This document shows positions 47,597-56,126 of a stretch of 64,000 nt of DNA, piece after piece (within the stretch, counting starts at the first letter, position 1; every line of letters begins with the position of its first letter). The translations under genes were made by a program, and so were the position numbers. Source of the stretch: Methanofollis aquaemaris (lineage in GTDB: Archaea; Halobacteriota; Methanomicrobia; Methanomicrobiales; Methanofollaceae); contig NZ_CP036172.1 in the NCBI RefSeq assembly GCF_017357525.1, forward strand, positions 1,214,561 through 1,278,560, given 5' to 3'. The notes beneath the pieces were generated by a model, which saw nothing but the letters and a program-made list of their open reading frames with translations, did not search any database and had not been told where the DNA came from.

Positions 47597-48547
47597 TCAC
47601 CCCAGACGCCCCAGCACCGCCTCGCCGAACTCGACCGTCGTCGCCGACCCGCCCAGGTCGGACGTCTTCACCCCGGCACCGAGCGTGCTCTCCACCGCCG
47701 CCTCGACCGCTGCCGCTCCTTCGCGGTCGCCGGCATGATCGAGAAGCATCGCCGCACTCCTGAGCGCCGCCACGGGGTTGGCGATGCCCTGGCCGGCGAT
47801 GTCAGGCGCCGAACCATGGACCGGTTCGAAGAGGGCGTGGTCGTCCCCGATATTTGCCGACGGCAGGAGCCCGAGGCCACCGACCAGGGAGGCGGCGGCG
47901 TCGGAGAGGATGTCGCCGAAGATGTTGGTGGTCACCACGACCGCATACCGGTCGGGGTGCATCAGCACGTCCAGGCAGAGGGCGTCGATGTACTTCTCCT
48001 CCCACTCAACCCCGGCCGCCTCCGCCTCCTCGACGGCGCACCGGCGGAAGAGAGCGTCGGACTTGAGCACGTTGGCCTTCGTCCCGATGGTGAGCCGACG
48101 ACCTTTCGCAAGCGCCGCGGCGAAACGTGCGATCCGCCTGCTTCCGACCTCGGTGACCACCCGGAGGGTGCAGGCCGAACCTGGAAGATCCCACTCGATC
48201 CCCGAGTACAGGCCCTCGGTGTTCTCGCGCACGATGGTGAGGTCCGCGCCGGGTCCGCGGACCGGACGGATATTGGCATAGAGCCCGAGTTCCTTGCGGA
48301 GCATGACGATGACGCTCCGGTAGTCCGGGTCGGGCGGGGTGGTCACCGCCCCGAAGAGCACGGCGTCGGCGTCGCGGAGGGCCCGGAGTTCTTCGGCACC
48401 GATGGCCGCACCGCACCGCTTCCACCGCCCGTACCCCACCTCGACCGGGAAGTAGTCCCACTCCGGGTGGAGACGCCTGAGCGCCGCCTCGGCCACCGGG
48501 ACGACTTCCTCCCCGATCCCGTCACCCGGAACGACCGCGACCTTCAT
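47597..48547 (-). CDS. aksF: Homoisocitrate/isopropylmalate dehydrogenase family enzyme, AksF
   Basis: A 316-residue NAD-dependent beta-decarboxylating dehydrogenase: VAVVPGDGIGEEVVPVAEAA at the start, RENTEGLYSGIEW, the catalytic-Lys region GTKANVLKSDALF, Asp-rich YIDALCLDVL and FGDILSDAAASLVGGLG, and EPVHGSAPDIAGQGIANP. It oxidises and decarboxylates homoisocitrate and its longer homologues in the 2-oxo acid chain-lengthening that makes 2-oxosuberate for coenzyme B. The same family includes LeuB, but here it lies in one unit with aksA, aksD and aksE. It overlaps the gene before it by 26 bases and is the last gene of the nine. Confidence 0.88.
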   Translation of the reverse strand: MKVAVVPGDGIGEEVVPVAEAALRRLHPEWDYFPVEVGYGRWKRCGAAIGAEELRALRDADAVLFGAVTTPPDPDYRSVIVMLRKELGLYANIRPVRGPGADLTIVRENTEGLYSGIEWDLPGSACTLRVVTEVGSRRIARFAAALAKGRRLTIGTKANVLKSDALFRRCAVEEAEAAGVEWEEKYIDALCLDVLMHPDRYAVVVTTNIFGDILSDAAASLVGGLGLLPSANIGDDHALFEPVHGSAPDIAGQGIANPVAALRSAAMLLDHAGDREGAAAVEAAVESTLGAGVKTSDLGGSATTVEFGEAVLGRLG

Positions 48548-49340
48548 CCTCTCTCCACTCCTCCAGCATCCTTCTCAGGACCAGATCGATGGTATGCGGC
48601 GACGCACCCCAGTGGACCACGCCACCGTACTTCTCGTTCCAGACGCCGACGCCCTCGCGCTCGCCCCGACAACACCTGGCGATAAACGGCTCCTCGGCCA
48701 CCTGGGTGAGCGGACAGATCTCCGCGATCTCGATCCCATCGCCATAGTTCTCGGCGCAGAACTGCCTGGCCGTGAGGCACCCGGCCACCCGCTCGTTCCC
48801 TTCCAGACGGTCGGCGTCCAGCGTCCGGTCGAATCCCCCCGCCCGGCAGGGATAGACCTCGGCCTCCAGGTCGCGGATATCTCTGATATGATACTCGAAG
48901 GTGACATTGAGATCGCCAAAGAGCCCGGTGGCCTCAAGTTCCTCCAGCACCGCAGCCAGGTGGGCCCGCGGCGGGACGATGTCATAGACATGGACAGTGA
49001 GAAAACTCCCGGGTTCCGGGTCGAAGACAAAGGTCCGCGACTCGTCCGGACTTGTGAAGATCGTGCACCGCTTCCCGCTCTCGCTAGCAAGACGGAGCAG
49101 ACGGGAACGGTCATTGATATTCACCGGTTCGGGCCAGACCGCCGTCTCTTCGGGGGTGGCGAGCACCCAACCGGCCTTCACTTCGCGCATCAATTCGTCT
49201 CCATCGGCGAGACTGACCGCGAGCACCTCCGGTCCCTCGTCCGTCTCCCTGATCAGCCAGCGGGAGAGGAAGTAAACCTTCTCGCCCAGGGGTTTCGTGG
49301 TGGCGAGTCCCACATATTTGCACTCTTCAGGAAATATCAT
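48522..49340 (-). CDS. Unknown protein within the aks (coenzyme B) gene unit
   Basis: A 272-residue protein with no family I can name with certainty. It begins FPEECKYVGLATTKPLGEKV, with mixed alpha/beta content and eight cysteines, several in the last third (YPCRAGG, GCLTARQFCAENYG, EICPLT, ARCCRGEREG), which could bind metal or a cluster. A motif VVHWGASPHTIDLVLRRMLE closes the protein. Its ATG overlaps the aksE stop by 4 bases and its end overlaps aksF by 26, so it is surely made along with the coenzyme B enzymes. A role in a late step of that pathway is inferred only from context. Confidence 0.75.
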   Translation of the reverse strand: MIFPEECKYVGLATTKPLGEKVYFLSRWLIRETDEGPEVLAVSLADGDELMREVKAGWVLATPEETAVWPEPVNINDRSRLLRLASESGKRCTIFTSPDESRTFVFDPEPGSFLTVHVYDIVPPRAHLAAVLEELEATGLFGDLNVTFEYHIRDIRDLEAEVYPCRAGGFDRTLDADRLEGNERVAGCLTARQFCAENYGDGIEIAEICPLTQVAEEPFIARCCRGEREGVGVWNEKYGGVVHWGASPHTIDLVLRRMLEEWREDEGRGRSG

Positions 49341-49816
49341 TCATGTCCTCCGCTGAGATAGGGGACGAGGCCCCCGGCCCGGAGGATCTCCCGCATCCGC
49401 GGGGAAAGCGGTCGGAGAGGCCGGCGGACACCGGCGGCCTCGACCCACCCCTCTTCGAGATCGAAGCGCACTGTCTCGCCCTCCTGGCATGGGACCTCGC
49501 ACTCAAGCACTGGAAGACCAATATTGACCGCGTTCCTGAAGAATATTCTGGCAAAGGTCGGGGCGGCGACCGCCACGACTCCCGCCTCTTTCAGGGCGAC
49601 CGGTGCCTGTTCCCTGGACGACCCGCACCCGAAATTCGGGCCCGCGACGATCACCGCACCCCTGAGCCGTCCGGCAAGGGCGGGGTCGAGGTCCTCGAAG
49701 GCATGACCGGCCCAGACCGAACGGTCTTTCGTCCGCAGGTACCGCCCGGCGATGATCAGGTCGGTGTCGATGTCGCGGCCCAGACAGACCGCACGTCCCT
49801 CCCCCCTCACAGGCAT
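49337..49816 (-). CDS. aksE: Homoaconitase small subunit AksE
   Basis: A 159-residue swivelling domain of the aconitase/IPM isomerase family. Seen: GRDIDTDLIIAGRYLRTKDR, GPNFGCGSSREQAP and FFRNAVNIGLP. In Methanocaldococcus the loop YLRT sets the homoaconitase apart from the leucine-pathway enzyme, whose loop is YLV-type; here the loop reads YLRT, good evidence for the coenzyme B enzyme. With AksD it moves the hydroxyl group in homocitrate and the longer homologues. It overlaps aksD by 10 bases and the next gene by 4. Confidence 0.9.
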   Translation of the reverse strand: MPVRGEGRAVCLGRDIDTDLIIAGRYLRTKDRSVWAGHAFEDLDPALAGRLRGAVIVAGPNFGCGSSREQAPVALKEAGVVAVAAPTFARIFFRNAVNIGLPVLECEVPCQEGETVRFDLEEGWVEAAGVRRPLRPLSPRMREILRAGGLVPYLSGGHE

Positions 49817-51021
49817 CCCTCCGGGGAGGCGATCTCGCCGGCAAGCGCAGTCGCCGCCGCGGTCGAGGGGGAGGCAAGATAGATCTCGCCGCCGACGCCC
49901 ATCCGGTTCCTGAAGTTCCGGTTCGCCGTCGAGAGGCAGACCTCGCCCTCCCCGATGACGCCCATATGCGCACCCAGGCACGGACCGCATCCGGGCGTCC
50001 CGACGGCGCACCCGGCCTCGACGAGGGTGGTGAGGACGCCGGTCTCGACTGCACGGAGGAGCACGGCCCTCGACGCCGGGACGACGACCGTCCTCACCTT
50101 CACCTTTTTTCCCTTCACGATCGCAGCAAAGCGCTCCAGATCCTCGTATCGCCCGCAGGTGCAGGTGCCCAGGAAGACCTGGTCGACCGCCATCCCCTCC
50201 TTCTCCGCGACCGGGCAGACGGTGTCCACCCGCGGCGGGAGAGCGAGGAGGGGTTCGAGATTTCCAAGATCGATCGTCACCTCGTCGGGGTAGCCGTCGA
50301 CCTCCCGGTGTTGGACCCCGACCTCGTGCCCGAACCCGGCAAAATATTTCTGGGTCGTCTTGTCCGCATAGAAGAGCCCGGCCTTCGCCCCGGTCTCCAC
50401 CGCCATGTTCGAGAGGGTGAGACGGTCGGCCATCGAGAGACCTGCGGCCCCCTCGCCCACGAACTCGAGGGCGCGGTACGTCCCCCCGTCCATCCCGAGG
50501 GCGGCCACATAGGCGAGGGCGAGATCCTTCGCCTCGACCGCCCCGGTGAAGTGTCCTTCCAGGAAGATCCCGATCGTCTCAGGCACCCGGAACCAGGACT
50601 CACCGGTCGCCCAGACCCCCGCGAGATCGGTCGCACCCACCCCGGTCGCAAAGGCGCCGAGGGCCCCGAGGGTGCAGGTGTGCGAGTCGGCACCGACGAC
50701 CACCTCGCCGGGCAGGGCGCACCCCTCGGCCATCACCTGGTGGCAGACCCCGCCGCCGACGTCGGAGAAATGTATCTTCTGCTTCTTTGCAAAGGCCCGC
50801 AACTCGTGCTGGAGGTCGGCGGTCAGCGAGGTGTTGGCCGGGGCGATGTGATCGAAGATGAGATGTCGGCGGTCGGGATCGGTGAAGACCCCGTTGCCGA
50901 TCGCACGCCAGGCCTCAAGGGCCAGGACACCGGTGCCGTCATGGGCAAAGGCCCGGTCCACCCGCCGGTCGAGATACTCACCGGCCGGTGCGCCGAGGAT
51001 CTGTTCTGAGAGGGTGCTCAT
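49807..51021 (-). CDS. aksD: Homoaconitase large subunit AksD
   Basis: A 404-residue [4Fe-4S] hydro-lyase subunit. Visible: IFDHIAPANTS, GADSHTCTLGALGAFATGVG, and cluster ligands in LGTCTCGRYEDL and AVGTPGCGPCLGAH. The usual element after the first ligand is CTNGR; here it is CTCGR, a Cys in place of the Asn. It forms the enzyme with AksE, acting on homocitrate, homo2- and homo3-citrate. The start at 51021 overlaps aksA by ATGA; an in-frame extension would intrude into aksA. Confidence 0.9.
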   Translation of the reverse strand: MSTLSEQILGAPAGEYLDRRVDRAFAHDGTGVLALEAWRAIGNGVFTDPDRRHLIFDHIAPANTSLTADLQHELRAFAKKQKIHFSDVGGGVCHQVMAEGCALPGEVVVGADSHTCTLGALGAFATGVGATDLAGVWATGESWFRVPETIGIFLEGHFTGAVEAKDLALAYVAALGMDGGTYRALEFVGEGAAGLSMADRLTLSNMAVETGAKAGLFYADKTTQKYFAGFGHEVGVQHREVDGYPDEVTIDLGNLEPLLALPPRVDTVCPVAEKEGMAVDQVFLGTCTCGRYEDLERFAAIVKGKKVKVRTVVVPASRAVLLRAVETGVLTTLVEAGCAVGTPGCGPCLGAHMGVIGEGEVCLSTANRNFRNRMGVGGEIYLASPSTAAATALAGEIASPEGCL

Positions 51022-52157
51022 CCGTGCAACACCTCCCTCCCCCTCACCGCGGTGCAGAGGATCTCCTTGAGCACCTCGGGAGTCACATGACACTTCGCCT
51101 CGCTGCGCCGTTTCACTTCATGCAATACCCAGCGCACCCCCTCGTCGTCCAGATGATACCCGAGGGACGCCGCCACATGCTCGACCGCGTGCCGTCCCGT
51201 ATGCTTGCCGAGCACAAAGGTCCGCTCCCGGCCCACCAGGTCAGGGGAGACATACTCGTAGGTCGAAGGGTCTTCGAGAAGGGCGGCGATGTGGATCCCG
51301 CTCTCGTGGGCAAAGGCGTTGGCACCGACCACCGCCTTGTTCCTGGCCACCTCCACCCCCGACGTCCGGGCGACCAGGTCGGAGAGGCCGCCGATCTGAG
51401 AGAGGTCGTACCGGTCGATCCCGACCTTCGTCGCAAGGACGACGAGCACCTCTTCAAGCGGAGTGTTCCCGGCCCGTTCGCCCAGGCCGTTGACCGTCGT
51501 ATGGAGCTGGAAGGCCCCGGCCTCCGCGGCGACAAGGGTGTTTGCCGTGGCGCACCCGAGGTCGTCATGGCAGTGGATGCAGAGCGGGAGGTCGACCTCG
51601 CTGCGGATCGCCTGCATCCGATCAAAGGTCTCCATCGGGGTCATGCACCCGACGGTGTCGGCGAAGGTGGCGAGGTCGGCCCCGGCCTCTGTTGCCTGCC
51701 GGTACGCACTGATGAGGGCGGGGAGTGCAGTCCGCGAGGCATCTTCGGCCCCGAACCGCACCTGCACCCCGTGGTCGTGGGCGTACTCGATCATCGCACA
51801 GGTCTCGGCCATCACCTCTTCCCGGCTCTTCTTATATTTGGTCCTGATATGGAGGTCCGAGGTGGCGGCAAAGAGCCCGATCATATCGACGCCGCAGTCC
51901 AGGGCGGCGTCGACGTCCCCCTTTCTCGCACGGGAAAGCGCACAGATCCGGGCGTCGAGGCCCATCCGGCAGACCGCCTGCACGGCCTCCTGTTCCTTTG
52001 CAGAGACCGCAGGGAACCCTGCCTCGATCACCTCGACCCCGGTCGCGTCGAGGAGGGACGCGATCTCCATCTTCTCCTCGCGGGTAAACGTGACGCCCGG
52101 CGTCTGTTCGCCGTCACGCAATGTTACGTCACAGATCTCAATATGCAACTTTTTCAT
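51018..52157 (-). CDS. aksA: Homocitrate synthase family enzyme AksA
   Basis: A 379-residue DRE-TIM metallolyase that condenses acetyl-CoA with 2-oxoglutarate, then with 2-oxoadipate and 2-oxopimelate, to lengthen the chain toward 2-oxosuberate. Signature: EICDVTLRDGEQTPGVTFTR, the metal-site motif LCIHCHDDLGCATANTLVA and NGLGERAGNTPLEEVLV, plus GKHTGRHAVE. The family also holds citramalate and isopropylmalate synthases; the surrounding aksD/E/F with a YLRT loop points to AksA. ATG 52157 has GGTGA six bases upstream and lies inside the end of the TPP-enzyme gene (20-base overlap). Confidence 0.9.
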   Translation of the reverse strand: MKKLHIEICDVTLRDGEQTPGVTFTREEKMEIASLLDATGVEVIEAGFPAVSAKEQEAVQAVCRMGLDARICALSRARKGDVDAALDCGVDMIGLFAATSDLHIRTKYKKSREEVMAETCAMIEYAHDHGVQVRFGAEDASRTALPALISAYRQATEAGADLATFADTVGCMTPMETFDRMQAIRSEVDLPLCIHCHDDLGCATANTLVAAEAGAFQLHTTVNGLGERAGNTPLEEVLVVLATKVGIDRYDLSQIGGLSDLVARTSGVEVARNKAVVGANAFAHESGIHIAALLEDPSTYEYVSPDLVGRERTFVLGKHTGRHAVEHVAASLGYHLDDEGVRWVLHEVKRRSEAKCHVTPEVLKEILCTAVRGREVLHG

Positions 52158-53283
52158 GACATTCACCAGCAGGGCATTCGCCGCTGACGATCACCGTCTG
52201 CGGACGATCCGGCGGGACAATCAACCGCCGCAGTCCGGGCAGGTCGTCGGCCCGGCAGTACGCGGGGTCGGCCCATCCGAGATACCGCCCGACACCGGGC
52301 GTCTCCTGGCCGCCGACCATACCCATACGCCTGTTCTCCAGCACAATACAGAGGAGCGGGAGCTCCTTTTCGTAGACATCGACGAGGGCGTTGAGCCCGG
52401 AGTGGAGGAGCGCATAGTCTCCGATGAGGGCCACCCCGGTACTCCGCGCTCCCACTCCCACCGCCGCACCGAGGCCGTAACTGGCGGTTCCGATGCGGTA
52501 CGGCGGGTTGACGGCGAGGAGCGAACACCCGGCATCGACCGCCGTCCGCATCCCCCGTTCCACGAGCAGGGCAAAGAGCGGGCGGAAGGGGCAGTTCTGA
52601 CAGAGGGTCCGGTAATACCCGCGGTCGGAGAACCGTTCGGGCGGGCCTTCGGGTGCGGTCACCGCCGGGCAGGTAATCCTGACACCCGCCGGGGCCGGAC
52701 GTTCCGACGAGACGGTGGCCATGACCTGGAGGGCATGTTGCCATCGTCCCAGGTTGGTGAGGTCCGGATCGGCGAGTGCGCCTGAGCCCGGCGTCCTGGG
52801 GAGAGGCGTCCCCGCCGCCTCCGCATCGAGCACGTCGGGGACGACTCTGAGAACCGCAACTCTTGAGAGCGCTTCGGAGAGAGAGAACGCCTCTTCGACC
52901 GCAGCCGCAAGGGCGAACCCCCCCTCGGGCTCCACCACCGGAACCATCGCCACCGGGCCATAGGCACGGGAGTCTTCGGCCGCCTGCGATGCTCGTGCCA
53001 GGGGGTCGTCGCCGGCGATGACCACGACACCGGCACCGAGCCCCTGGGCCGTTGCCTGGACCATCGGGTCGGCAAGCAGATTCATCCCCACGTTCTTCAC
53101 GACGACCGCCGCCCGTCGACCGACAAGCGAGTCGCCGAGGGCGTACTCCAGGGCCACCTTCTCGTTGGTGCAGACCTCGGCCCCGGCCGCGGCGGCGAGG
53201 TCGGTCACCGGATAGCCCGGCACGCCGTAGATCCGGTCGGCCGCCGCCCGCAGAGCGGTCGCCAGAGTCTCGGTCCCTCGCAT
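52138..53283 (-). CDS. IorA-like thiamine-diphosphate enzyme without ferredoxin domain
   Basis: A 381-residue TPP enzyme. The N-terminal half is the pyrimidine-binding domain (EVCTNEKVALEYALGDSLVG, VVVKNVGMNLLADPMV, AGDDPLARASQAAEDSRAYG); the C-terminal part is the pyrophosphate-binding domain with ALIGDYALLHSGLNALVDVY and IVLENRRMGMVGGQETPG, the GD-x(n)-N motif. This matches the alpha chain of indolepyruvate:ferredoxin oxidoreductase (IorA), but the C-terminal 2[4Fe-4S] ferredoxin domain is missing and no IorB gene is beside it. It could act as a simple 2-oxo acid decarboxylase. Next to aksA-D-E-F, 2-oxosuberate is the obvious substrate candidate (inferred). It is one base from the radical SAM gene and overlaps aksA by 20. 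Confidence 0.85.
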   Translation of the reverse strand: MRGTETLATALRAAADRIYGVPGYPVTDLAAAAGAEVCTNEKVALEYALGDSLVGRRAAVVVKNVGMNLLADPMVQATAQGLGAGVVVIAGDDPLARASQAAEDSRAYGPVAMVPVVEPEGGFALAAAVEEAFSLSEALSRVAVLRVVPDVLDAEAAGTPLPRTPGSGALADPDLTNLGRWQHALQVMATVSSERPAPAGVRITCPAVTAPEGPPERFSDRGYYRTLCQNCPFRPLFALLVERGMRTAVDAGCSLLAVNPPYRIGTASYGLGAAVGVGARSTGVALIGDYALLHSGLNALVDVYEKELPLLCIVLENRRMGMVGGQETPGVGRYLGWADPAYCRADDLPGLRRLIVPPDRPQTVIVSGECPAGECHEKVAY

Positions 53284-53284
53284 C

Positions 53285-54250
53285 TCAGTCCCTCCCCGGG
53301 ATCAGGTCGCACCCGGTGCAGGCCGCACACATCGTCCGTGCCGCCGCAGGGTCGAGCCCGGCCTCGTCCAGCGCCTTTTTCAGCACCGCATGGAGACGGA
53401 GCAACCGTTCGGCCGACGGTCGGGCAAAGTGAGCGAGCCCGGCGCCGGGCGAGAGCGGCCTGAGCACCGGGATCACCCCGATGGAACAGAGCCGACGGAT
53501 CACGGCTTCCATTTCTTCATCGCTCTCGCCAAGCCCGACGATGACATTGCTCTGGACATGGTTCTTCCCGAAGAGCCCGACCGACTCTTCGAGCACCTCC
53601 CAGAGGAGGTTCCAATCCTGTCCCGGACACATCTCGGCGAAGAGTCCGGGCGTCGCCGCTTCGAGGTTGAACTTCACCTCAGCGACGCCCGCCTCCCGCA
53701 GCAGCCTCGGGGTCTGCGGCGTCGGGTAGATGGAGACTCCGATCGGAAGGCCGAACGGCACGAGGAGCCGAACGATCCCGATCGTCCGCCGCTCTTCCTC
53801 CGCCACGCTCCCAGCCACGCCGCTGGTGATCGAGATGGCGTCGATCTCTCCGAGGACCGAGCGCACCATCTCGATCACCTCGTCGAGCATCTTTATGCGG
53901 CCCTGGTTGAGCGGCACGGCGCAGTATTTGCACGAGAAGATGCACCGCTCGGAGAGGGTGATGTAGGCCTGGCGGGGACAGTGGAGAGGAGCGGGTTCGA
54001 GCACACCCCGCACCAGTTCTCCCCCGAAGGGGATGGTCGCCTTCCCCATCCCCTCGTGGATGAGCGTCAGGTCGGCTTCGGGATCGACCGAGAGCCTGAC
54101 CCGTCGGCCGTCGACCGAGAAAAAAAGAGAACCCGTACCCCCGGCACCGGGCCCGGCCGTCGAGGATGAGACATACTGCTTCGCCGGCACCCCGACCACC
54201 TTCACCCGACCCCTGGCCAGGAGTTCGGCCTTCAGTCGGAGCCAGTCCAT
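53285..54250 (-). CDS. Radical SAM protein with a C-terminal cysteine cluster
   Basis: A 321-residue radical SAM enzyme. The SAM cluster motif C-x3-C-x2-C is ERCIFSCKYCAVPLNQGRIK. Barrel strands include ISITSGVAG, VSIYPTPQTP, AEVKFNLEAATPGL and NVIVGLGESDEE, close to the BioB/HydE-like style. The last 20 residues carry a further CAACTGC motif, possibly an auxiliary cluster site. The N-terminal 90 residues are beta-rich and unfamiliar. Sulfur insertion would fit the need for a thiol in coenzyme B, but this is inference. It overlaps the gene upstream by 19 bases. Confidence 0.85.
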   Translation of the reverse strand: MDWLRLKAELLARGRVKVVGVPAKQYVSSSTAGPGAGGTGSLFFSVDGRRVRLSVDPEADLTLIHEGMGKATIPFGGELVRGVLEPAPLHCPRQAYITLSERCIFSCKYCAVPLNQGRIKMLDEVIEMVRSVLGEIDAISITSGVAGSVAEEERRTIGIVRLLVPFGLPIGVSIYPTPQTPRLLREAGVAEVKFNLEAATPGLFAEMCPGQDWNLLWEVLEESVGLFGKNHVQSNVIVGLGESDEEMEAVIRRLCSIGVIPVLRPLSPGAGLAHFARPSAERLLRLHAVLKKALDEAGLDPAAARTMCAACTGCDLIPGRD

Positions 54251-55146
54251 AGGGCAAGCGCCTCCTCGAAGTCGGTGTAGAAGGGGATCGCACCGACTGC
54301 TCCGATGAGCCCGTTCCCGTCCATCACGACCCTGACCTGCGGGAGCACGGCCTCAAGGTCGGCACGCGAGACCTTGCCCCGCTTCACCGCCTCGCCATAC
54401 TCCCGGAGGGACGAGGGATCGAACCCCACAAAGGCCGCCATCCCGGTCTGGTCGGAGAGGGTGTAGCGTCTGAGTAATACCGCGAACCGCTCGATGAGAG
54501 CGTCGGGATCGGTGGAGGCGAACTCCACCGCACAGGCCACGCAGTTCTTCGTCCGTTCCGGCACCGGGAAGAGTTGCACGATGGTGTGCGAGAGGTAGAC
54601 CGAGGCCTCGTCCGCGATCTGCCGGGCGATGTTGTGGACCAGGGTCCAGGTCGCCCCCGCCTCGGGAGTATCGGTGTCGTCCACCCCGATCACCACCCGT
54701 TCGCGGCGGGGGAGCCAGACCGTCGAGCCGGCCAGTTTCCCGCCACCCGACTCGTCACACTCGGCCCTGATCACGCCCCGACCCCGCGCCCGGCAGGCCG
54801 AGGCACCGACGCCCCCCCCGCCCATCCCGAGATAGGTGACCGAGACCTCGTCGCCCTCGACCGACGCTCCGGCAATGCCGGCAGGGAACTTCGAGCCTTC
54901 GAGCCCCAGGTCGACCGACCCGGTCCGCAGGAGGTAGCGCGTCGTCGGCCCGACAATCCGCGCCGACTCGACGAGCGGGCTCTGCGCATAGTGGCGACGG
55001 ACCCACTGCGCACCGCCGGTACATTCGTAGAACTCAACGATCTCGGCCCGGTCGCCGCCGGCATCGGCGACGGCGACGATCCCGGGGTACGAGATCACGT
55101 ATGGATCTTGAAGTTCCTCAGATGCTCCCTTCAGGTCGTTCGCCAT
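54232..55146 (-). CDS. Methanogenesis marker protein 11-type protein
   Basis: A 304-residue protein found, as far as I recall, only in methanogens and their relatives (methanogenesis marker 11). The front reads DPYVISYPGIVAVADAGG and EFYECTGGAQWVRRHYAQSP, the middle holds VVIGVDDTDTPEAGATWTLV, and KNCVACAVEFAS follows. The IGVDDTDT motif resembles the GIDDTD start of the kinase-like domain of tRNA agmatidine synthetase TiaS, which uses ATP and phosphorylates a Thr. The start (ATG 55146) overlaps the upstream gene by 29 bases. Exact function unknown. Confidence 0.8.
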   Translation of the reverse strand: MANDLKGASEELQDPYVISYPGIVAVADAGGDRAEIVEFYECTGGAQWVRRHYAQSPLVESARIVGPTTRYLLRTGSVDLGLEGSKFPAGIAGASVEGDEVSVTYLGMGGGGVGASACRARGRGVIRAECDESGGGKLAGSTVWLPRRERVVIGVDDTDTPEAGATWTLVHNIARQIADEASVYLSHTIVQLFPVPERTKNCVACAVEFASTDPDALIERFAVLLRRYTLSDQTGMAAFVGFDPSSLREYGEAVKRGKVSRADLEAVLPQVRVVMDGNGLIGAVGAIPFYTDFEEALALWTGSD

Positions 55147-56083
55147 AGAGACCAGCCGCCTCCACGCCGCGGTTGCCCCAGAGCACAGCGCCCAGAGCAC
55201 CTATCCGGCCCTTGCTCGCCGCGGAGTCGATGAAGGTGATCCCGAGCCTCGCCGCCTCGGCCTCCACCTCGTCCTGGGTGAGCAGTTCGGTCTTGATCTT
55301 CCTGGTGTACTCGGTCTCGGGCAGGCCGATCCCGCGGTAGTAGGCGATCCCGGTGTCCCCCGAGACCGCGTGCTCCTCGATGTAGTCCTTCACAAAACCG
55401 AGGAGGTCGTCGACCGACCCCGGCCTGACCGCAAAGTTCAGCACCGAGCCGACACAGTTGGTCGTCTTCTGCGGGGCCTTCGGGTTGAGTTGAACCAATC
55501 TCATATTAAGGTACTCCGCTCCTTCGACCTTGCACGCCTCGGCACACTTGAGAGCCAGCACCCAGGTTGCCCCATCCTCTTTGGTATCGGTGTCGTCGAT
55601 CCCGATGGTCACCTTCTCATACTTCGGGGAGACGATCCGCACCCGGCAGATACGCGCACCCCCGATGTGGAGATCGTCCTCACCCGGGTACTCGGCCCTG
55701 ATCACCCCGGGTGCCTGCGGGAGACATGCGGCAACGCCGACACCGGCACCGGCGATCCCGGCCCAGGTGGTCACGACCTCGTCGCCCTCCACCTCGACGC
55801 CGGCAAGGGCCTGGCCCCCGATCTCCTGACCTGCCGCCCCGAAGTGAGGTTCGTACGCACCAAGGCGAGCGGCCATGGTCATCGACGAACCCTGGACGTC
55901 GGCGGCGGTCAGCGCCCCGCCGGCACGCCGTCGATTCATCACGTCCCACTCGATGGTGCCGCGGTGCCGGCAGGTCTCCAGGATCTCGGCCAGGCCTTTC
56001 TCCTCATCCACCATCACGATAAATTTCTCTGCAAAGAGCGGCCCAAAGCGCTCTCTCACTTCGTCGGGGGTCAGCACGATCAT
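55118..56083 (-). CDS. Second IGIDDTDT protein, paralogue of the marker-11 gene, first in the unit
   Basis: A 321-residue protein related to its neighbour. VTIGIDDTDTKEDGATWVLA aligns with VVIGVDDTDTPEAGATWTLV, then LVQLNPKAPQKTTNCVGSVL with IVQLFPVPERTKNCVACAVE; the closing parts are also alike (TFIDSAASKGRIGALGAVLW here). The N-terminal 80 residues differ (TPDEVRERFGPLFAEKFIVM). The ATG at 56083 lies just after a 30-bp palindrome. Both paralogues are probably ATP-using enzymes; whether they form a heteromer is unknown. Confidence 0.75.
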   Translation of the reverse strand: MIVLTPDEVRERFGPLFAEKFIVMVDEEKGLAEILETCRHRGTIEWDVMNRRRAGGALTAADVQGSSMTMAARLGAYEPHFGAAGQEIGGQALAGVEVEGDEVVTTWAGIAGAGVGVAACLPQAPGVIRAEYPGEDDLHIGGARICRVRIVSPKYEKVTIGIDDTDTKEDGATWVLALKCAEACKVEGAEYLNMRLVQLNPKAPQKTTNCVGSVLNFAVRPGSVDDLLGFVKDYIEEHAVSGDTGIAYYRGIGLPETEYTRKIKTELLTQDEVEAEAARLGITFIDSAASKGRIGALGAVLWGNRGVEAAGLYGERPEGSI

Positions 56084-56120: not shown

Positions 56121-56126
56121 ATCATC

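Follow-up and report, generated by a model that had tools for sequence, protein, structure and literature searches.

Methanogenesis marker protein 11 contains a TiaS-like core and probably acts late in coenzyme B synthesis

Methanogenesis marker protein 11 (Mmp11), encoded in Methanofollis aquaemaris by a gene here called A, would appear to be an ATP-dependent enzyme of late coenzyme B synthesis, with a function after 2-oxosuberate; judging from sequences and predicted structures, we consider this the likely explanation. Methyl-CoM reductase (MCR) works together with coenzyme B in the formation and consumption of methane, and coenzyme B carries a threonine phosphate. The steps which follow 2-oxosuberate are a decarboxylation, the introduction of a thiol, amide formation with threonine, and a phosphorylation. 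Searches of the literature found no gene assigned to 7-mercaptoheptanoylthreonine kinase activity, and searches for methanogenesis marker protein 11, for mmp11 and for TiaS together with methanogenesis markers found no reports. In a paper of 2025 (PMC12068725) the coenzyme B pathway was still called unknown, and COG1900 proteins were suspected.

The window, i.e., the whole stretch of DNA that was analysed (64,000 nucleotides), contains on its minus strand a packed gene array from 56083 to 47597. The features are, in the direction of transcription:

55118..56083, minus strand: gene B, an ancient Mmp11 paralogue with a TiaS-like core (model residues 156-316)
55583..55606, minus strand: IGIDDTDT motif of B, read directly from the sequence
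about 55565-55567, minus strand: Thr18-equivalent of B, from the alignment with TiaS
54232..55146, minus strand: gene A, Mmp11 (TIGR03280), with an N-terminal domain of about 147 aa and a TiaS-like TCKD/FLD core (model residues 148-302)
54667..54690, minus strand: IGVDDTDT motif of A, read directly from the sequence
about 54649-54651, minus strand: threonine of GATW in A, aligned with Thr18 of TiaS and invariant in the alignment
53285..54250, minus strand: radical-SAM protein with CxxxCxxC and a C-terminal CxxCxxC; distantly related to LipS2 and to the MSMEG_0568 family
52138..53283, minus strand: thiamine-diphosphate (TPP) enzyme, IOR-alpha-like; candidate 2-oxosuberate decarboxylase
51018..52166, minus strand: AksA, homocitrate/homologue synthase
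49807..51021, minus strand: AksD, homoaconitase large subunit
49337..49816, minus strand: AksE, homoaconitase small subunit
48522..49340, minus strand: DUF7714/XcbA-family protein, located beside B in several auxotroph-like genomes
47597..48547, minus strand: AksF, homoisocitrate dehydrogenase

The initial annotation had described tandem genes with IG(V/I)DDTDT motifs in an operon context; both genes and both motifs were present, and AksA, AksD, AksE and AksF were found to be encoded downstream of A. Thus, in addition to the aks chain-elongation genes (AksADEF), the operon holds A, the radical-SAM protein and the TPP enzyme. Gene A starts at about 55146 and stops at 54232; for B a longer reading frame, with a start at 56125, is possible. 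Neighbouring genes overlap (B and A by 29 bases, A and the radical-SAM gene by 19, the TPP gene and aksA by 29) or nearly touch, which speaks for a single transcription unit, presumably reaching from B to aksF. The TPP enzyme is short, with 381 aa, compared to about 500 aa in homologues elsewhere.

With the NCBIfam model TIGR03280 (methanogenesis marker 11), A obtained 328.2 bits, above the cut-off of 255.8, and is therefore a member of the family, whereas B is a paralogue which remained below the cut-off with 196.7 bits. The Pfam model TiaS_TCKD (PF22641; gathering cut-off 27) was exceeded by both proteins, A having 42.9 bits (6.4e-11) and B 56.1 bits (5.5e-15), which excludes that the DDTD motif is a chance resemblance. 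Neither of them is TiaS proper, since the full-length equivalog NF040849 yielded 11.4 and 33.8 bits, respectively, against a cut-off of 600. In the phylogenetic tree A and B formed separate clades, with support values of 0.998 and 0.994. The A clade grouped with Mmp11 of Methanosarcina, Methanocella and Archaeoglobi; the B clade consisted of sequences from Methanomicrobiales and Methanocella only. The two genes are paralogues, as had been proposed from their motifs, and their duplication is ancient; a recent tandem copying of A into B is ruled out by the two old clades.

Whole-genome searches revealed three further relatives in the 2.75-Mb genome of M. aquaemaris: TiaS, a paralogue C and a protein of 234 aa. 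Paralogue C (C1:2632865) is Mmp11-like with an apparent N-terminal helix-turn-helix, and it is a possible regulator sensing a coenzyme B-related compound or ATP; relatives of similar length occur also in auxotroph-like genomes. The 234-aa protein (C1:681167) corresponds to the TiaS-like core region alone.

When a profile of 14 A-type sequences was run against the PDB, significant E-values were obtained for TiaS-type entries only (3u02, 1.2e-12; 3au7, 8e-8; 3amt, 9e-8; 4rvz, 7e-7). AlphaFold2 models of A and B had pLDDT values of 91.2 and 91.8. Residues 148-302 of the A model matched TiaS (3amu_A) with a Z score of 18.8 and an rmsd of 2.2 for 146 aligned residues, and the C-terminal half of B matched TiaS with a Z score of 20.1 and an rmsd of 2.2 for 154 residues, while the best structural matches other than TiaS reached Z scores of 6.9 (A) and 7.0 (B). 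The Foldseek result for A was in agreement with this. For the N-terminal halves no fold match surfaced, the match lists being filled by the TiaS core. The likeness to the kinase-like domain of TiaS, which had been noticed from the short motif, thus holds in sequence and predicted structure over the whole ATP-using core. It includes, in both proteins, the positions of D8, T10, D11 and T18 of TiaS, which were invariant in an alignment of 69 rows comprising TiaS, A, B, C and the short relative. The kinase domain of TiaS takes its name from Thr18. Fold match and conserved signature residues, taken together, make ATP-dependent phosphotransfer a reasonable expectation for both A and B.

With the TiaS structures 3amt, 3amu and 4rvz, A and B have in common the TCKD and FLD, the DDTD motif, the position of Thr18 and a C-terminal motif of the RGxIGA type. 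The C-terminal RNA-binding part of TiaS, however, has no counterpart in A and B, whose remaining part is a separate domain of about 150 aa at the N-terminus, and a full-length TiaS is encoded separately in the same genome. A standalone TiaS-like protein of Pyrococcus furiosus (3u02), deposited as a tRNA modifier, shares the core with A (1.2e-12; Z score 16.6), but not the N-terminal domain of A and B.

The gene neighbourhood was counted in 80 named Methanomicrobiales loci, restricted for each gene to those with sufficient flank. Downstream of A were found the radical-SAM gene (68 of 74 loci), the TPP gene (66 of 67), aksA (64 of 65) and aksF (56 of 57); B was located upstream of A in 41 of 76. 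A adjoins a TPP homologue in Methanosarcinales. In Methanocella, A with the radical-SAM gene, the TPP gene and aks are grouped together and B is located elsewhere, where it is directly followed by mmp4/mtxX, another methanogenesis marker. In genome G020, no more than a few kb separate Mmp11 from the mcr operon. The radical-SAM protein was present in the tested methanogen genomes with A, and was lost together with it.

Gene losses also connect A with the pathway. A was searched in 232 Methanomicrobiales genomes, and B, AksA, the TPP, radical-SAM and DUF7714 proteins as well as ComDE, AksD and AksF in selected ones; in two cases the query was chimeric, several proteins of the window having been joined end to end, and matches were assigned by query range. 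In two genera A and aksA occurred together in 9 genomes, both were missing from 10, and in none was one found alone, where genomes within a genus are to be regarded as non-independent events. In genus g11 the complete set is present in G198, G121 and G462; the small genomes G461, G463 and G464 (1.4-1.7 Mb) contain no A, radical-SAM protein, TPP partner or Aks proteins, and DUF7714 comes immediately after B. In genus g13, which is Methanocorpusculum-like, A and AksA were detected in G262, G208, G159, G390, G311 and G335; in G411, G413, G414, G415, G416, G417 and G419 both were absent and B was kept. Those of the ten A-less genomes which were tested lacked also the radical-SAM protein, the TPP partner and aks-type AksD and AksF. 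Some of the genomes are only 69-92% complete; reading of the loci showed that the block between B and DUF7714 had been cleanly removed, and such junctions indicate that the deletion is real despite partial completeness. Eight drafts which apparently had aksA and no A proved to be contig breaks, all ending before the expected start of A. In G208, B is split between two reading frames (C1:918539-919491), suggesting a frameshift or sequencing error. The DUF7714/XcbA-family gene lies inside the aks operon, yet stays beside B after the loss of aks; it is widespread in archaea with MCR and was not found in the tested Archaeoglobi without MCR.

One of the reduced genomes can perhaps be connected with a known phenotype. 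Methanomicrobium mobile requires coenzyme B and branched short-chain acids for growth, according to Kuhner et al. (1991) as cited in PMC10658910. G461 is without homologues of LeuA, LeuB and LeuC, which fits the need of M. mobile for branched acids; G461 would then be M. mobile, and genus g11 appears to be Methanomicrobium. Methanogens without A and aks appear to import coenzyme B. The family TIGR03280 is without an assigned function; the results described here tie its member A to coenzyme B synthesis.

For A, we infer the use of ATP, the substrate and the reaction by analogy with TiaS. TiaS phosphorylates a carbonyl, an amine then displaces the phosphate, and a C-N bond is made; since phosphate activation serves there to form a C-N bond, the fold would suit a kinase as well as a ligase step. 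A could hold ATP through its DDTD motif and, at an active site containing the Thr18-equivalent, pass the phosphate to a substrate which is held against the unrelated N-terminal domain. In the reaction somewhat favoured by us, A would be the 7-mercaptoheptanoylthreonine kinase, which would complete the pathway by phosphorylating the hydroxyl of threonine with ATP. The TiaS-type phosphotransfer core with its conserved motif residues, the loss of A together with the pathway and the threonine phosphate of coenzyme B are all in line with such a kinase; since in TiaS the phosphorylation activates a carbonyl for amine attack, a ligase role fits about equally well, and we put forward the assignment tentatively. 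As an amide ligase, A would phosphorylate the carboxylate of 7-mercaptoheptanoate, or of a precursor, and the amine of threonine would attack and displace the phosphate, a part played by agmatine in TiaS. The match covers the kinase part of TiaS and the FLD, including the agmatine-bound structures 3amu and 3au7, and the amide step requires ATP and is likewise without an assigned gene; this reaction is possible, if somewhat doubtful. The neighbouring TPP enzyme would probably decarboxylate 2-oxosuberate, and the radical-SAM protein may perform another late step. Enzymes from outside the operon could carry out several of the proposed steps.

B did not follow the aks genes. It was present in 19 of 19 genomes of the two genera, including all ten without A and AksA. 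B is therefore probably not part of the coenzyme B pathway and has a job different from that of A, since it is kept where the pathway is lost and is absent from many producers of coenzyme B. Its retention led us to reject a single pathway for both paralogues, and the earlier idea that the second paralogue is the amide ligase or a partner subunit is not supported; the proposed link to coenzyme B finds support in the case of A, which is lost together with aks in two genera, and is contradicted in that of B. Retention of B by auxotrophs would be explained if B were a kinase, for salvage or as an alternative, whose substrate is coenzyme B that has been imported or dephosphorylated. In addition, five of the loci which were read have B beside DUF7714, and its catalytic residues are identical to those of A. 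Such a function is nevertheless unlikely, considering that B is missing from many users of coenzyme B, that it pairs with mmp4/mtxX in Methanocella, and that the coenzyme B on which M. mobile reportedly grows is phosphorylated already.

Outside the methanogens, Archaeoglobaceae without MCR were found to carry A and an MSMEG_0568-like radical-SAM neighbour (G024, Ferroglobus-like; genus g52, Geoglobus-like), so that A is not confined to genomes with MCR, and Mmp11 is not a strict marker of methanogenesis. In MCR-less Archaeoglobaceae with A, G024 and G132 among them, cysteate synthase-like and ComDE genes were adjacent and mmp4 was present. A short AksA was not found in these genomes, nor in G092, a genome of Archaeoglobi with MCR; any coenzyme B made there would need another source for its C7 chain. 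The occurrence of A in archaea without MCR and without short AksA counts against a role in coenzyme B synthesis. The combination of genes for Mmp11, the radical-SAM protein, mmp4 and coenzyme M synthesis suggests that such archaea may have a thiol pair of the CoM/CoB type without methane metabolism.

These genomes bear also on the question whether A belongs to coenzyme M synthesis, or to a thiol step common to both coenzymes. Among the MCR-less Archaeoglobaceae tested, ComDE was over the cut-off in 7 of 9 genomes with A and in 0 of 9 without it. The auxotroph-like methanogens have lost ComDE as well as A, and the loss of coenzyme M synthesis is therefore confounded with that of A. However, A is present without ComDE in G311, which has A and aks, and in G092 and G063, which are both MCR genomes; moreover, A lies in the aks operon of Methanomicrobiales, while ComDE is 300 kb away in the M. 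aquaemaris genome. The occurrence of A without ComDE and its position in the operon favour that A tracks coenzyme B rather than coenzyme M, and a function for coenzyme M or in a shared thiol step seems improbable. That A matures or modifies MCR, or is a non-catalytic ATP sensor, is likewise improbable: A stands beside the mcr operon in G020, and the fusion of the third paralogue to a DNA-binding domain indicates that the core can serve regulation, but small Methanomicrobium- and Methanocorpusculum-like genomes manage without A, and A is found where MCR is missing.

Late coenzyme B biosynthesis is without assigned genes in the literature searched. The co-loss pattern names three candidates, namely A, the radical-SAM protein and the TPP enzyme; it tells A apart from the similar B, and it allows coenzyme B auxotrophs to be predicted among the strains. 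A wider reading is that a TiaS-type RNA-kinase core was recruited to coenzyme synthesis, that Mmp11 and the radical-SAM protein carry out late steps of coenzyme B synthesis, and that this module persists together with coenzyme M synthesis in Ferroglobus- and Geoglobus-like archaea without MCR; taken as a whole, this is conceivable and rather speculative. If true, a TiaS-type core would have a small coenzyme as its target, which is new for this kinase fold, and Ferroglobus- and Geoglobus-like archaea would employ the CoM-S-S-CoB pair while neither making nor oxidising methane.
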